Part shown: positions 36,603 through 43,500 of the stretch, one piece after another
Numbering within the stretch: position 1 is the stretch's first letter
How the letters are laid out: every line of letters starts with the position of its first letter
Origin: [Mycobacterium] stephanolepidis
GTDB lineage: Bacteria; Actinomycetota; Actinomycetes; Mycobacteriales; Mycobacteriaceae
Direction: 5' to 3'
Assembly: GCF_002356335.1 (NCBI RefSeq)
Contig: NZ_AP018165.1
Coordinates: 1,054,001 to 1,118,000, forward strand
DNA: 64,000 nucleotides
Notes under the pieces: model-generated
Database searches by the model: none
Told to the model about the DNA's origin: nothing
What the model saw: only the letters and a program-made list of their open reading frames with translations
Program-made: the position numbers and the translations under genes

Positions 36603-37247
36603 ATGGCGGTACCTAGCAGGCCTGATGGTCCCGGGCGGACTCCTCGCGTCCGGATGGCCGGCACCGAGCGCCGCCGCCAGCTGATCGATGTCGCGCGGTC
36701 GTTGTTCGCCGAACGTGGTTACGAGGCCACGTCTATAGAAGAGATCGCCCAACGCGCCGGAGTTTCCAAGCCTGTCGTGTACGAGCATTTCGGCGGCAAG
36801 GAGGGCCTTTACGCCGTCGTGGTGGATCGCGAGATGTCGGTGCTGCTCGACGGCATCACCTCGTCGCTGACGAGTTATCGCTCGCGGGTGCGGCTGGAAC
36901 AGGTGGCGTTGGCGCTGCTGAGCTATATCGAGGACCGCACCGACGGGTTCCGGATCCTGATCCGGGACTCTCCGCCCGGGGTCAGCTCGGGGACGTATTC
37001 GAGCCTGCTCAACGACGCGGTCAGTCAGGTGTCGAGTATCCTGGCGGGCGACTTTCAGCGTCGGGGACTGGATGCCGAGATGGCGCCGCTGTATGCGCAG
37101 GCGTTGGTGGGGCAGGTATCGATGACGGCTCAGTGGTGGCTCGATGCGCGAGAGCCCAAAAAGGAAGTGGTTGCGGCGCACATCGTCAACCTGTGTTGGC
37201 ATGGCCTGAAGCATCTGGAAGCAGATCCGCAGCTACAGGAGGAATGA
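36603..37247 (+). CDS. TetR-family regulator (Rv1019-like)
   Basis: A 214-aa TetR regulator. The helix-turn-helix spans about residues 22-66 (TSIEEIAQRAGVSKPVVYEHF), followed by the all-helical ligand domain. The ATG at 36603 gives a short basic N-terminal tail; the internal ATG at 36654 (MAGTERRRQL) is an alternative. Position between glmU/tRNA-Gln and mfd corresponds to M. tuberculosis Rv1019. An 18-base dyad lies just upstream. In this genome the five small secreted genes follow on the same strand and could be its targets or simply neighbours. Confidence 0.9.
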   Translation: MAVPSRPDGPGRTPRVRMAGTERRRQLIDVARSLFAERGYEATSIEEIAQRAGVSKPVVYEHFGGKEGLYAVVVDREMSVLLDGITSSLTSYRSRVRLEQVALALLSYIEDRTDGFRILIRDSPPGVSSGTYSSLLNDAVSQVSSILAGDFQRRGLDAEMAPLYAQALVGQVSMTAQWWLDAREPKKEVVAAHIVNLCWHGLKHLEADPQLQEE

Positions 37248-37321
37248 GTCTTCGGACAGGAACATCTGCGCGCTCCGCATCGTTGGACATGACGGGTGGC
37301 TCGCTCAGGAGGTGGTCGGTG

Positions 37322-37555
37322 GTGACAGGGATTCGCCTGGTTCTCGGGGCCGCGGCTGCCGTCGCGATCGGCGTGATGGGCGCTCCCGTTGCGGCCGCAG
37401 ACGACTGCAGTGGTCCGCTGACCGCGCGGGTGTGCGTGAAGCCGGGCAACGCCGAGTTGCACTCCACGCCGAATCGGGAGTTCATCCCCGATGTTCCGCA
37501 GGCTTCGCCGTGGCTGGTCGTGGGTGGCACCGGCTCGGGTATCTGGATCCCATAA
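37322..37555 (+). CDS. Small secreted protein, AEL-motif family, copy 1 (77 aa)
   Basis: First of five tandem paralogues. An AGGAGG at 37307-37312 supports GTG 37319 or 37322. The signal peptide (MTGIRLVLGAAAAVAIGVMG) ends at AAADD. The mature part of about 47 residues has C-SGPLTARV-C followed by VKPGNAELHSTP, the shared signature, and a Pro/Trp/Gly-rich tail (PQASPWLVVGGTGSG). Two cysteines would form one disulfide outside the cytoplasm. I know no named domain for this; function unknown. Confidence 0.8.
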   Translation: MTGIRLVLGAAAAVAIGVMGAPVAAADDCSGPLTARVCVKPGNAELHSTPNREFIPDVPQASPWLVVGGTGSGIWIP

Positions 37556-37648
37556 CCGAACGTGCCGCCGGGCCGAACCGGTGCGTGACATGCGCCGATC
37601 ACCTAGAATTTAAGTCGTTGGGGTTGACCACAGGATGAGGTGTTTGTC

Positions 37649-37948
37649 ATGACGTCAGTAGTTGTGCGATGGGCAGTGGTCGGGGCTGCCGCGGCCGCGT
37701 TGGGCGCCTTGCCTGTGTCGCTGGCTTCGGTTGCCGCAGCCGATCCGCAGTGCGCGGACCCGGCCATGTGTCAGTCCGAGCCGCCCAATCCCGAGAACTG
37801 CAACGGTGGACCCGACGACATGGTGTGCACTCGTGCGGGGGATGCGGAACTGCACTCTTCGCCGAACCCGGCAGACATTCCGCCGGTGCCCCAGGCCGAG
37901 ACTCCGCCCTGGATGGTTTTCGGTAACCCCGGTATGGGCGGCCACTAA
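37649..37948 (+). CDS. Small secreted protein, AEL-motif family, copy 2 (99 aa)
   Basis: Start ATG 37649, chosen because the upstream pattern GAGGTG-N6-ATGACGTCA also precedes copy 4 exactly. Signal peptide to about AAADPQ, then CADPAMCQ (shared with copy 4), then C-NGGPDDMV-C and TRAGDAELHSSPNP. The tail is Pro-rich (PADIPPVPQAETPPWMV) and resembles the tail of copy 4. Four cysteines could form two disulfides. Same strand as the other copies, 93 bases after copy 1. Confidence 0.82.
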   Translation: MTSVVVRWAVVGAAAAALGALPVSLASVAAADPQCADPAMCQSEPPNPENCNGGPDDMVCTRAGDAELHSSPNPADIPPVPQAETPPWMVFGNPGMGGH

Positions 37949-37992
37949 CCGGTAACCCCGGGGCAACACCGACCTCGGTAATTGTTTTCCGA

Positions 37993-38023
37993 TCCTAACG
38001 AGTCTAATGTTGACTCGTTAGGA
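37993..38023. terminator. Long perfect hairpin between secreted-protein copies 2 and 3
   Basis: TCCTAACGAGTC and GACTCGTTAGGA form 12-base perfect arms around the 7-base loop TAATGTT. There is no T-tract after it, so it may be a mycobacterial-type terminator for copy 2, or an operator/attenuator in the 104-base gap before copy 3 (start 38053). Confidence 0.5.
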
Positions 38024-38052
38024 AATCTAAGCATTTAAAGGGGTGTTGTCCC

Positions 38053-38292
38053 ATGCCTGGCCTTCGATATGCCATGGCGGTGGTGGTGGCGGGTCTGCTG
38101 GCAGCGGTACCCGTCGGTGCCGGTTCGGTGGATGTAGAGAGTTCCGTCCGTGGCGGTCACGGACATTGCGCGCAGCCTCGGACTGGATCAGAGGTGTGCA
38201 TAACTCCGGGTGATGCCGAGCTGCGATCGTGGCCGGATCCGGCCGATCTGCCGACGCCACCTGACGTTCCGATACGCCCGGACAATCTCTGA
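38053..38292 (+). CDS. Small secreted protein, AEL-motif family, copy 3 (79 aa)
   Basis: ATG 38053. Signal peptide MPGLRYAMAVVVAGLLAAVP, then a His/Gly patch (GGHGHC) before the signature C-AQPRTGSEV-C and ITPGDAELRSWPDP. The tail is short and Pro/Asp-rich (ADLPTPPDVPIRPDNL) without the PPW motif of copies 2 and 4. It is the most divergent member in the variable part but keeps the core. A long hairpin lies 30 bases upstream of the start. Confidence 0.8.
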   Translation: MPGLRYAMAVVVAGLLAAVPVGAGSVDVESSVRGGHGHCAQPRTGSEVCITPGDAELRSWPDPADLPTPPDVPIRPDNL

Positions 38293-38410
38293 GGCGGTCG
38301 AGGCCCACAACCTTCGCGATATCTTCAAAAAAGCTGTGAACTAGCTGTATGACGTGCGAAAAGCGCCTAAAATCAGACTCTGGGGTCGATCGATAGGCGA
38401 GGTGGTCGTC

Positions 38411-38677
38411 ATGACGTCAACAGTGATGCGGTGGGTGGTGGCGGGAGCCGCCGCGGCGGCGCTGGTCGTCACGCCCGCGGTACTTGCCCCCACGGCTGCG
38501 GCAGAGCAGCCGTGCGCGGATCCGGCGATGTGCCAGGCACCGACACCGGGGCCGGTGCACGAGGATGCCGAGCTGCACTCGAAACCAAATCCAGCGGACA
38601 TGCCGCAGGCCCCGCAGAGCGGGATGCCGCCGTGGCAGATGATCAACGCCCCGGGGGAAGCGCGTAACCACCCCTGA
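38411..38677 (+). CDS. Small secreted protein, AEL-motif family, copy 4 (88 aa)
   Basis: ATG 38411 after GAGGTG, as in copy 2. The signal peptide is very similar to copy 2 (TVMRWVVAGAAAAALVV) and is followed by CADPAMCQ. The second cysteine pair of the family is missing: the sequence jumps from APTPGPVH to EDAELHSKPNPADMPQ. The tail SGMPPWQMINAPG matches copy 2. Copies 2 and 4 are therefore the closest pair and probably arose by duplication. Confidence 0.82.
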   Translation: MTSTVMRWVVAGAAAAALVVTPAVLAPTAAAEQPCADPAMCQAPTPGPVHEDAELHSKPNPADMPQAPQSGMPPWQMINAPGEARNHP

Positions 38678-38768
38678 GCCTTGGCATCGTCGGGCATCAG
38701 CTGTGAACTGGCTGGGAATTGTGCCGGTCTGATGGCATCTTGAGACGGCGCGACTTATCGTCTTGCTC

Positions 38769-39068
38769 ATGATGTTTGTGCTGGTACGGCGTGCGGCGCT
38801 GCTTGTGGCGGCGGGTGTGACCATCGGTATGCCGCTAGCGTTGGGGGTATCGCACGCCGACCCCCCGTGCGCGCCGGGCGCGCCCGCATGCGCGCTACCC
38901 ACGGCAGTTGTGCCGCCGGCAGGTGCCCACGAAAAGTGCAGTGCGCCAAAGCCGGGCGAAGAGGTCTGCGCCGAGCCCGGTGATGCCGAGCTCCACTCGA
39001 CTCCGACCGCTCACGTCCCGGCACCGCCGTTGACGGTTGCCCCGACCAAGAGCGGTGCCGCGCTCTAA
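38769..39068 (+). CDS. Small secreted protein, AEL-motif family, copy 5 (99 aa)
   Basis: ATG 38769 or 38772, no clear ribosome-binding site. Signal peptide MMFVLVRRAALLVAAGVTIG with cleavage near SHADPP. A CAPGAPAC pair precedes a Pro/Ala linker, then the signature C-SAPKPGEEV-C and AEPGDAELHSTP. The tail is Pro/Ala/Thr-rich. The stop overlaps the stop of the convergent lysA-like gene by 4 bases (39065-39068). Confidence 0.8.
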   Translation: MMFVLVRRAALLVAAGVTIGMPLALGVSHADPPCAPGAPACALPTAVVPPAGAHEKCSAPKPGEEVCAEPGDAELHSTPTAHVPAPPLTVAPTKSGAAL

Positions 39069-40411
39069 CGCGCGCCGCAGTCCCGCGAGAGCAGATCGGC
39101 GATCGTCTCGCGACGTACCAGCTCGCGTACCCGTCCGTCGCGGACCGCGAGCACCGGGGGACGCCCGACCAGGTTGTAGGACGAGGCCATGCTGTGGTTG
39201 TACGCACCGGTGCAGGCCACCGCCAGGACGTCGCCGGGGCGCACGTCGGACGGCAGGCTGACATCGCGGGCGATCTCGTCGCCGGATTCGCAGTGCCGCC
39301 CGGCCACCGTCACTAGTTGCGGTGGGGCAGAAGGGTGTCTATTGGCCAGTGCGACACTGTATTTAGCGTCGTACAGCGAGACTCGCGGATTGTCGCTCAT
39401 GCCGCCGTCGACGGCCACGAAGGTGCGCCCGCCGGGCTGGGTCTTGACCGACACCACCCGGTACAGCGTCACTCCCGCGCGTGCGGAGATGGCGCGACCG
39501 GGCTCCACCACAACGCGAGGCCGCGGGAAACGCTCGGCCGCGCAGGCGGCGTCGAGGGCGTCGTCGATGAAATCGGCGAGCTCGGCCAGGTCGAGTTCGG
39601 GGTCACCCGAGCGGTAGGGAACGCCGTGGCCGCCACCGATATTGAGTTCACCCAGGATCACGCCGTGCTTGGCGCGGATATCGGCCATCGCGGCGATCAT
39701 GCGGCGAATGGTCTCGCCGTAGAGCGCGCAGTCCGTGACCTGTGAACCGATGTGGCAGTGCAGGCCGACCAGGTTCAACAGGGGCTGGTCCAGCACCCGG
39801 CGGACGGCCTCGGTGGCGTGCCCGCTGTGTAACGGGAATCCGAACTTCTGATCGGTGACGCCCGTCGTTACCGCGGCGTGCCCGTGTATGTCGATATCGG
39901 GGGTAACCCGTACCAGTACACGCTGGCGTTTCTTGAGTCGAGTCGCCAGGAACATGATTTCGGTATTGGAATCCAGCACGATCCGGCTCACGCCGACCGC
40001 GGCCGCGTCACTGAGCTCGTCAGGGGTCTTGGCGTTGCCGTGCATGATGATTCGTTTCGGGTCGAAGCCGCCCGCAAGTGCGGTCGCCAACTCGCCGGAA
40101 GAGCAGACATCCAGCGACAGCCCCTCTTGCGCCACCCAGCGCGCGATATCGGTCGTCAGCAGCGCCTTGCTGGCGTACGCGATCTCTATCTCGCGCAGGG
40201 CACGGCGATAATGACGGGCGCGGTGGCGGAAATCCTCCTCGTCGACCACGTAGGCGGGGGTGCGGAATTGGTCGGCGATTTCCGAGAGCGCCGTCTCTCC
40301 GACGCACATCCGGCCCTGCTCGTCCAGGTGTGTGGTGACCGGCCACACGGCCGGGTCGACGCGCGGTCGCGCCACGTTATGTAAGGACGGCAGGAGGTCC
40401 AGAAGTGTCAT
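39065..40411 (-). CDS. Diaminopimelate decarboxylase-like PLP enzyme
   Basis: Fold-type III PLP-dependent decarboxylase, 448 aa from the ATG at 40411. The PLP lysine is K82 (YASKALL); GLHCHIGSQ, GGGHGVPY, VVEPGRAI and the active-site CESGD are typical of LysA. In mycobacteria the main lysA lies next to argS/thrA elsewhere, so this is probably a second, related decarboxylase or a specialised paralogue. Divergent from mfd. The gene is not part of the M. tuberculosis order here as I recall it. Confidence 0.85.
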   Translation of the reverse strand: MTLLDLLPSLHNVARPRVDPAVWPVTTHLDEQGRMCVGETALSEIADQFRTPAYVVDEEDFRHRARHYRRALREIEIAYASKALLTTDIARWVAQEGLSLDVCSSGELATALAGGFDPKRIIMHGNAKTPDELSDAAAVGVSRIVLDSNTEIMFLATRLKKRQRVLVRVTPDIDIHGHAAVTTGVTDQKFGFPLHSGHATEAVRRVLDQPLLNLVGLHCHIGSQVTDCALYGETIRRMIAAMADIRAKHGVILGELNIGGGHGVPYRSGDPELDLAELADFIDDALDAACAAERFPRPRVVVEPGRAISARAGVTLYRVVSVKTQPGGRTFVAVDGGMSDNPRVSLYDAKYSVALANRHPSAPPQLVTVAGRHCESGDEIARDVSLPSDVRPGDVLAVACTGAYNHSMASSYNLVGRPPVLAVRDGRVRELVRRETIADLLSRDCGAR

Positions 40412-40518
40412 GCATCTACCGTGCGCCTGTGGCGACCCCATGCGGAGTTTCTTGACGTGGCCTTGACGGTGATGGGCCCGATCTTTTCGAGATCTGGGCG
40501 CCGTAGAATGAACGCACC

Positions 40519-43500
40519 ATGACTGTGACTGCCCCGCCTCTCGCCGGGGTGATCCGGACAGCCTTGCGGGATCCCGCGTTCGATGTTCTTGCCCCGGCCC
40601 TCGCCGCCAAGACCGGCCTTGATCTGACGGCACCGTCGTGTGCCCGCCCACTCGTCGTCACCGGTATGGCCGATGCGAGCGACGCGCCTGTCCTGGTGGT
40701 GACGGCCACCACCCGGGAAGCGCAAGATCTGGCCGCCGAGCTGCGCGACGTGTACGGCGACGCGGTCACCCTGCTGCCGTCATGGGAGACGCTTCCGCAC
40801 GAACGGCTGTCACCCGGCGTCGACACCGTGGGTGCCCGATTGCAGGTGCTGCACCGGCTCGCCCATCCGGAGGATTCCCGGATGGGGCCCGCACTGCGGG
40901 TGGTTGTCACGACGGTTCGTTCACTGTTGCAGCCGATGTCTCCCGAGCTGTTCGATCTGGAGCCGGTGGAGCTCACCGTGGGTGCCGAGTCGGAATTCGA
41001 CGGGCTGATCGCGCGCCTGGTCGAGCTCGCGTACACCAGGGTGGACATGGTGGCCGGCCGCGGTGAGTTCGCGGTGCGCGGTGGCATTCTCGACGTCTTC
41101 AGTCCCACCGCAGACCATCCGGTGCGTGTGGAGTTCTGGGGCGACGAGGTCAGCGAGATGCGCTACTTCTCCGTCGCCGACCAGCGATCGATCCCCGAGC
41201 TGCAGGTCACCTCCGTGCTCGCGATGCCCTGCCGCGAACTGCTCCTCACCGAACAGGTGCGCACGCGAGCGGCCGAGCTCGCGGCGGCGGCGGGAGACTC
41301 CGGTAGTGCCGAGGGCGAGCACCGGCTCGGCACCGGGCTGGGGGAGATGCTGGCCAAGCTGGCCGACGGAATCTGCGTCGACGGAATGGAATCGCTACTG
41401 CCCGTACTGCATTCGGGTGAGCTGACCATACTGGTGGACCACCTGCCCGAGGGCACTCCCGTACTGATCTGCGATCCCGAGAAGGTGCGCACCCGGGCGG
41501 CGGATCTGGAGCGCACCGGCCGGGAGTTTCTGGAGGCATCCTGGTCGGTCGCCGCGATCGGCGCCGATGCGCCGATCGATGTTGCCGCGCTGGCAGACTC
41601 GGGATTTCGGGAGCTTGTTGACGTCAAGCACGCGGCAGACGAAAGCGGACATCCGTGGTGGTCACTGAGCCCGCTCAGCATGGGCGACGATCAGGCGATC
41701 GATCTCGCGGTACGGCCATCGCCGTCCTCGCGCGGCCACAAAGAGGGTGCGGCAGAGATCTTCGCAATGCTGCGCGCCCACGTGATGACGGGCGGACGGG
41801 CCGTGGTGGTGGCCGCCGGTGCGGGCACCACCCACCGGATCATCGAGCAGCTGGCCGAAACGGAAACGCCGGCAAAGCTGTTGGAGCCCAGGGCGGAGCC
41901 CGTCGAGGGTGTTGTCGGAGTGCTGCGCGGCCACCTCACCGACGGTGTGGTGCTCGCGGGGGCCAATATCGTCATCGTCACCGAGACGGACCTCACCGGC
42001 AGCCGAGTCGCGGCCACCGATGGCAAGCGGTTACCCGCCAAGCGCCGCAACCAGGTTGACCCGCTGGCCCTTGCCGCCGGCGATCTGGTTGTGCACGACC
42101 AGCACGGTATCGGGCGATTCGTGGAGATGGTGGAACGCACCGTCGGTGGCGCCCGTCGCGAGTATCTGGTGCTCGAGTATGCATCCGGTAAGCGTGGCGC
42201 CGCCGCCGGTGGGCAGAGCGATCGCCTGTACGTGCCGATGGACTCCCTCGATCAGCTGTCCCGGTACGTGGGTGGCGAATCGCCCGGCCTGAGCCGTCTC
42301 GGCGGCAGCGACTGGGCCAATACGAAGACCAAGGCGCGCAAGGCCGTTCGCGAGATCGCGGGTGAGCTTGTGGCGCTGTACGCGGCGCGCCAGGCCGCTC
42401 CCGGACATGCCTTCGCGGCGGACACTCCGTGGCAGCGCGAGATGGAAGACGCCTTCGGGTTTGTCGAGACGGTTGATCAGCTGACCGCCATCACCGAGGT
42501 GAAATCCGATATGGAGAAGCCGGTTCCGATGGACCGGGTGGTGTGCGGCGACGTGGGCTACGGCAAGACCGAGATCGCGGTACGCGCGGCGTTCAAGGCC
42601 GTCCAGGACGGTAAGCAAGTCGCTGTGCTGGTGCCCACGACGCTGCTGGCCGATCAGCATCTGCAGACGTTCACCAGTCGCACCGCGGGATTCCCGGTGA
42701 AGGTGGCGGGCCTGTCACGATTCACCGACCCCGCCACCTCGAAGCTGGTTATCGAGGGAATGGCCGATGGCTCAGTCGATATCGTCATCGGCACGCACCG
42801 GCTGCTGCAGACCGCGGTGCGGTGGAAGGACCTCGGTCTGGTGATCGTCGACGAGGAGCAGCGATTCGGCGTCGAACACAAGGAACACATCAAGGCGCTG
42901 CGCACCCATGTCGACGTTCTGACCATGAGCGCCACCCCGATTCCCCGCACCCTGGAGATGAGCCTGGCGGGCATCCGGGAGATGTCGACCATCCTGACCC
43001 CGCCCGAAGAGCGTTACCCCGTGCTCACCTACGTCGGTCCGCATGACGACAAACAGGTGGCGGCCGCCCTACGACGTGAGCTGCTGCGCGACGGTCAGGC
43101 GTTCTACGTGCACAACCGGGTGATCTCCATCGATCGGGCCGCCGCGCGCATACGCGATCTGGTTCCTGAGGCCAGAGTCGTTGTCGCGCATGGTCAAATG
43201 CCTGAGGAACTGCTTGAGCGCACCGTCGAGGGGTTCTGGAACCGCGAGTACGACATCCTGGTGTGCACCACCATCATCGAGACGGGGCTGGACATCTCCA
43301 ACGCCAACACCCTGATCGTGGAGCGGGCGGATATCTTCGGGCTGTCGCAGCTGCACCAGCTGCGCGGGCGCGTCGGTCGCAGCCGTGAGCGCGGCTACGC
43401 CTACTTCCTGTATTCGCCGGAGGTGCCGCTGACCGAGACCGCATACGACAGGCTCTCGACTATCGCGCAGAACAACGATCTGGGTGCCGGCATGGCCGTG

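Follow-up and report, generated by a model that had tools for sequence, protein, structure and literature searches.

What are the five small genes that stand in a row beside a tetR gene in [Mycobacterium] stephanolepidis, and to which proteins are their products related? Among the small exported proteins of fast-growing mycobacteria, those of the M. abscessus/chelonae group included, many carry no family name. The consulted part of PMC10892769 reports 600 secreted proteins of M. abscessus, more than half of them orphans. We analysed a window of 64,000 nucleotides of the M. stephanolepidis genome, in which five plus-strand open reading frames at positions 37322-39068, here called P1 to P5, form a tandem array (Table 1). 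A first-pass annotation had described five consecutive same-strand genes, each with an export-type start and the element [DN]AEL[HR]SxP, and the reading frames, a motif scan and hydropathy values agree with that description for all five. The same annotation had treated the core of these proteins as special to the array and had proposed a role in host interaction or competition. On both points our analysis leads elsewhere: sequence profiles place the array very probably as one branch of a family, so far unnamed, from fast-growing mycobacteria, whose members we would tentatively seek in the envelope.

Table 1. Features of the array and its flanks, numbered from the first letter of the window
Feature	Position	Strand	Evidence
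TetR-family regulator gene, array flank	36603..37247	+	Pfam TetR_N 1.9e-19; same neighbour in 10 other array genomes
P1, 77 aa, core C-x8-C, NAELHSTP	37322..37555	+	ORF, motif scan, orthologues, dN/dS
Block GATCACCTAGAATTTA ahead of P2, the same in all ten sequences aligned	37597..37612	+	intergenic alignment
P2, 99 aa, N-terminal C-x5-C, core C-x8-C, DAELHSSP, PPW tail	37649..37948	+	
Hairpin between P2 and P3, 12-bp stem, 7-nt loop	37993..38023	+	kept in ten aligned sequences
P3, 79 aa, core C-x9-C, DAELRSWP	38053..38292	+	
16-nt element AGCTGTGAACT[AG]GCTG before P4, repeated before P5	38332..38347, 38699-38714	+	15/16 alike in window
Block CGCCTAAAATCAG before P4, resembling the block before P2	38364..38376	+	intergenic alignment
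P4, 88 aa, N-terminal C-x5-C, without core Cys pair, DAELHSKP, PPW tail	38411..38677	+	
P5, 99 aa, N-terminal C-x6-C, core C-x9-C, DAELHSTP	38769..39068	+	
lysA-like decarboxylase ORF, flank separating array from mfd	39065..40651	-	TIGR01048 3.7e-126 from residue 109

The array had been placed between mfd and a tetR gene described in the annotation as Rv1019-like. The tetR flank, itself preceded by tRNA-Gln, is correct, whereas the direct 3' neighbour is a lysA-like reading frame on the minus strand, with mfd lying beyond it. The lysA-like frame extends into mfd, so its true start probably lies inside the frame, and its first coordinates overlap the end of P5 (39065-39068). No immunity, processing, export or transporter gene was recognised beside the array, whose flanks in 10 other genomes are likewise tetR, the lysA-like gene and then mfd. 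The TetR-family regulator may control the array and is named here as a candidate. Rv1019 is described as a repressor of mfd in M. tuberculosis in the consulted part of PMC9579286.

When the window is translated in six frames, the element [DN]AEL[HR]SxP is found once in each array gene and nowhere else, five times in all. The longer pattern C-x8/9-C-x2-[PA]-G-[DN]-A-E-L occurs four times, in P1, P2, P3 and P5, in agreement with the core cysteine pair previously noted in four of the five proteins. In 200 residue shuffles, a crude control, the mean counts of the two motifs were 0.005 and 0.0, respectively. Besides the core pair, P2 and P5 carry an additional N-terminal cysteine pair, while in P4, from which the core pair is missing, the N-terminal C-x5-C is the sole pair. 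Close to the start of every array protein lies a hydrophobic segment (best Kyte-Doolittle mean over 15 residues 2.03-2.50), and no LxxC-type lipobox was seen by eye before the first cysteine of any of these proteins. Such starts suggest that the array proteins are exported by way of a Sec-type signal, and the two core cysteines are presumably joined in a disulfide. P2 and P4 do have in common CADPAMCQ, the PPW tail and the start region GAGGTG-N6-ATGACGTCA, from which a recent duplication had been deduced. That age is contradicted by an identity of 51.6% and by the presence of P2 and P4 as distinct genes in 10 other genomes, so that their split is older than those species.

We surveyed 396 genomes from the GTDB genus with the array profile, and 10 matched at E<=1e-12. 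The order tetR-P1-P2-P3-P4-P5-lysA-like-mfd is retained in 10/10 other array genomes; P3 has decayed in one of them, L209 (genome G298), which we counted for gene order and copy gain and loss and omitted from the intergenic alignments and the hairpin, covariation and dN/dS analyses. Across the array region the window has about 89% DNA identity to Mycobacterium sp. D16Q13 (L001). The names attached to relatives of the array proteins include M. abscessus, chelonae, saopaulense, franklinii, salmoniphilum and immunogenum, with not every protein type found under every name. Among the best 80 of 575 tetR loci, which include one array genome (L001), the 79 others gave no array match (tblastn E<=1e-3). 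A lysA-like match was found in 17 of these 79 loci and was absent from the remainder, so this gene comes and goes at this place. The array itself is a stable marker at a fixed genomic place in Mycobacteroides.

Copy number within this fixed order does vary. A sixth gene, P6, lies 3' of P5 in three of the ten array genomes (L202, L203 and L204), and a P6-like start is retained after P5 in L205. In L208 a further complete copy stands between P4 and P5, and in L209 the body of P5 carries a P6-like tail. These changes are of the kind that recombination between neighbouring genes would produce. A relic of an extra array copy can also be seen at L209:3036-3209, its complete counterpart being the copy between P4 and P5 of L208.

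Selection on the array was estimated as pooled pairwise dN/dS (Nei-Gojobori) over ten sequences, the window and nine others; P2 in L202 and L208 and P1 in L207 were entered with a start late by one or a few codons. The mature parts of P1 to P5 gave values of 0.065, 0.103, 0.073, 0.123 and 0.063, and the signal parts 0.373, 0.179, 0.592, 0.303 and 0.147. Purifying selection on the mature parts is strong, and these parts are conserved, not diversifying; their low dN/dS indicates that the array genes are real and constrained.

The spaces between the genes are also conserved in part. The blocks before P2 and P4 look promoter-like, TATCGT stands directly before P5 in 10/10 aligned sequences, and the 16-nt element before P4 and P5 is partly retained in other genomes. 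Scanning the array for consensus promoters and terminators found neither kind of signal. The conserved blocks before P2, P4 and P5 suggest that the array genes may be transcribed separately, each from a promoter of its own. The hairpin between P2 and P3 is paired in 95.0% of 119 cells over ten sequences, with one compensatory cell, and the window stretch around it folds more stably than its own shuffles (z -4.90). Covariation in this hairpin does not rise above shuffles, of which 162/500 reach its score and 232/500 its percentage paired. One-sided changes, mostly to G-U, preserve the RNA pair in 14 cells, which makes an RNA hairpin likelier than a DNA operator. The palindrome, allowing up to three mismatches, is found at a single place in 8/10 genomes and is absent in 2/10, and on these two grounds we set aside its reading as a DNA operator as the less fitting one. 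The hairpin may act as a terminator, a leader element or an operator.

Searched with the array profile, other mycobacteria yielded weak matches. On reading, these were small proteins of exported type with C...[TV]xC-x2-PG[ND]AQ[IL]xxxP and Gly/aromatic tails, some of them encoded two or three in a row. A profile built from seven of these distant proteins (A4) matched at least 727 database proteins at E<=0.1. It matched 198/297 genomes at E<=1e-3 and 170/297 at E<=1e-6; the 28 of the 198 with weaker matches include four in which the array is present (G001, G091, G095 and G170). Compared profile to profile, the array and A4 are similar with a probability of 93.6% (E 2.1e-07) over 25 columns, and this short common core limits the best explanation that we can give. 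The core that the annotation had regarded as special to the array also occurs in a larger family of other mycobacteria, as profile searches, profile-profile comparison and HMM ranking agree.

The ranking used an HMM built from 123 distant proteins, all of which lack the array motif and differ from every array-type protein. Of the 810 ORFs in the window, the five array frames took ranks 1-5 (E 1.2e-05 to 0.015; the next ORF had 0.068), in a test that is partly circular because the distant seeds had been found with the array profile. P1, which came top, was scored within a longer stop-to-stop frame (36626-37552). The array frames were again first when the mature part alone was scored (E 0.0011 to 0.032, next 0.32); here P2 (E 0.032) and P4 (E 0.011) were marginal, and P4 was also weak in the full-length test. 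A core of a cysteine pair, G-[ND]-x-[EQ]-[LI] and a proline is present in P1, P2, P3 and P5, and P4 keeps DAELHSKP alone. The unnamed small exported proteins of Mycolicibacterium resemble the array proteins in their signal-like start, cysteine pair, G-[ND]-x-[QE]-[LI], proline and tandem copies. They differ in their Gly/aromatic tails, in having no AELHS and in a longer cysteine spacing, the first two cysteines being separated by 9-23 residues in the 123 distant proteins versus 8-9 in the array core. Tandem arrangement is a habit of the family: 35/83 matches (E<1e-6), in 15/21 genomes, lie on the same strand within 800 bp of another.

Known families offer no home for these proteins. As the annotation had said, no Pfam domain covers them: the array proteins gave sub-threshold hits, none over the curated cut-off, in Pfam and NCBIfam, and 75 A6 members had no match at E<=0.01 in either. 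Sets of DUF732 or MPT63-like proteins are likewise small, exported and present in several copies, and differ from the array proteins and the 75 A6 members, which have no Pfam match. Six proteins compared with PHROGs gave no match at E<=0.1. A mobile origin was considered and rejected, as P0068 matched no plasmid and P0002 no phage. AlphaFold2 models of P1 (A7, 56 rows; mean pLDDT 64.7) and P0068 (A6, 75 rows; mean pLDDT 62.9) consist of a signal helix followed by two short strands and three strands, respectively, with the two cysteines on neighbouring strands in both. These low-confidence models suggest a shape of signal, cysteine-linked beta-hairpin and Pro/Gly tail. Solved structures gave no significant match by fold (best E 0.73) or by sequence (best E 0.36). 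The UniRef name of one relative, P0150, is 'Keratin associated protein', a label without tested meaning. Open full-text literature, searched partly with locus tags that were guesses, yielded no description of the family, and the consulted parts of PMC11925935, PMC8049324, PMC4694148, PMC10597346 and PMC11551767 do not treat the array family.

The family appears unevenly distributed with respect to growth rate. We searched with A6 in 50 genomes reached through named loci, 41 mycobacterial and nine from Nocardia, Rhodococcus and similar genera. At least 26 matched at E<=1e-5, or 21 after setting aside five with hemophore-like hits. True members were found in all eight named species that we take to be fast growers: M. 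iranicum, wolinskyi, hodleri, vinylchloridicum, arenosum, moriokaense, aquaticum and deserti. Among the candidates scored there was no true member in fourteen other named species, presumably slow growers for the most part: M. bohemicum, simiae, gordonae, gastri, numidiamassiliense, methanotrophicum, arosiense, colombiense, alsense, kyorinense, rhizamassiliense, triplex, arupensis and heraklionensis. No family member was found among the candidates scored in the nine non-mycobacterial genomes, and an A7 search of 36 non-mycobacterial genomes, these nine included, gave no match in a design without a positive control. Recognition of one family would unite scattered 'hypothetical proteins', supply a profile with which to search for more, and point to a testable split between fast and slow growers in their exported proteins.

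The hits in slow growers were rejected as family members. M. numidiamassiliense, colombiense, simiae, bohemicum and sp. 1245805.9 gave one hit each, which when read proved hemophore-like, presumably of the Rv0203 type. Such proteins resemble those of the array in being exported and in having a mature part that begins near a cysteine (CSPAGV...), which gives weak profile hits. Unlike the array proteins, they are encoded in open frames of 150-201 residues and have neither a second cysteine at the right spacing nor a G-[ND] turn. The best family hit in genome G076 is likewise hemophore-like and was discarded. The array proteins themselves had no match at E<=10 to heme-binding domain models of Pfam or NCBIfam.

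Our best guess at what the proteins do, held with a little less than even confidence, is that they are accessory proteins of the envelope or periplasm. The array would be the Mycobacteroides branch of a family of small proteins that fast-growing mycobacteria export by a Sec-type route, and its genes would have arisen by tandem duplication and recombination between neighbours. Each protein would consist of a signal peptide, a short core folded as a cysteine-linked beta-hairpin, and a tail of Pro/Gly or aromatic character, different from one paralogue to the next. The pattern of the core would be C-x8 or more-[VT]-C or [VT]xC, followed by G-[ND]-x-[EQ]-[LI] and Pro. Once mature, the proteins might be retained in the periplasm or envelope, or shed; the hairpin could serve as a rigid core while the tails touch wall or outer-membrane material. 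They would then be structural or binding accessories of basic upkeep, rather than variable antigens or toxins. Kinship itself might be doubted, since the core in common spans some 25 columns and mean column identity over 20 family sequences is 29%, so that short cysteine-hairpin proteins of similar composition could have converged without common descent. We think this very unlikely: the five array frames and no others lead the 810 frames with and without the signal part, architecture and tandem habit match, and Mycobacteroides has a dispersed copy (L172, L173) that resembles the Mycolicibacterium type.

Two other functions were weighed against envelope upkeep. Secreted effectors of host interaction or competition, whether antigens, adhesins or bacteriocin-like, would also be small, of exported type, arranged in tandem and gained and lost as copies. 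The mature parts of the array proteins are under strong purifying selection, though, and their orthologues keep a fixed order; the family is common in fast growers, with no true member seen in the named slow growers; and among the neighbours of the array no gene for immunity, processing or a transporter was recognised. A host or competition role is therefore left without support, and we consider it distinctly improbable. A role as extracytoplasmic partners of metal (manganese) uptake, either binding metal or serving an Nramp transporter, is suggested by Mycolicibacterium, where family genes sit between a DapDH-like gene and an Nramp gene. Among 22 family loci, an Nramp gene was present in at least 12, a DapDH-like gene in at least 11 and a short-chain dehydrogenase gene in at least 10, on the strand of the family gene in most loci; these counts are lower bounds because simple ORF picking hid some neighbours. 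The 20 loci from the Mycolicibacterium side, however, had been picked mainly from high-scoring places, and many of them are one orthologous locus. Moreover, the three Mycobacteroides Nramp loci that were read have no family gene alongside, the array is located elsewhere, and the family alignment has no conserved histidine or metal site besides the two cysteines. We judge a part in metal uptake to be just as improbable.

Extending the envelope reading, one may picture the family as a component of fast-grower envelope biology that was lost when slow growth arose, and its Mycobacteroides ancestor as the source of five or six specialised, separately controlled proteins acting together in one extracellular or envelope structure. 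We regard this fuller scenario as unlikely, if worth stating.

Some observations on the regulation of relatives may be added. Control by SigF was considered and dropped, as 0/47 upstream stretches matched against a background of 0.7%, with starts chosen by rule of thumb. At one locus (L264:3017-3103) a 20-bp palindrome resembling a TetR operator separates a TetR gene from a family gene. The dispersed copies in two Mycobacteroides genomes (L211:2967-5850 and L212) stand beside response regulator and histidine kinase genes, as does a family copy in M. moriokaense (L267).
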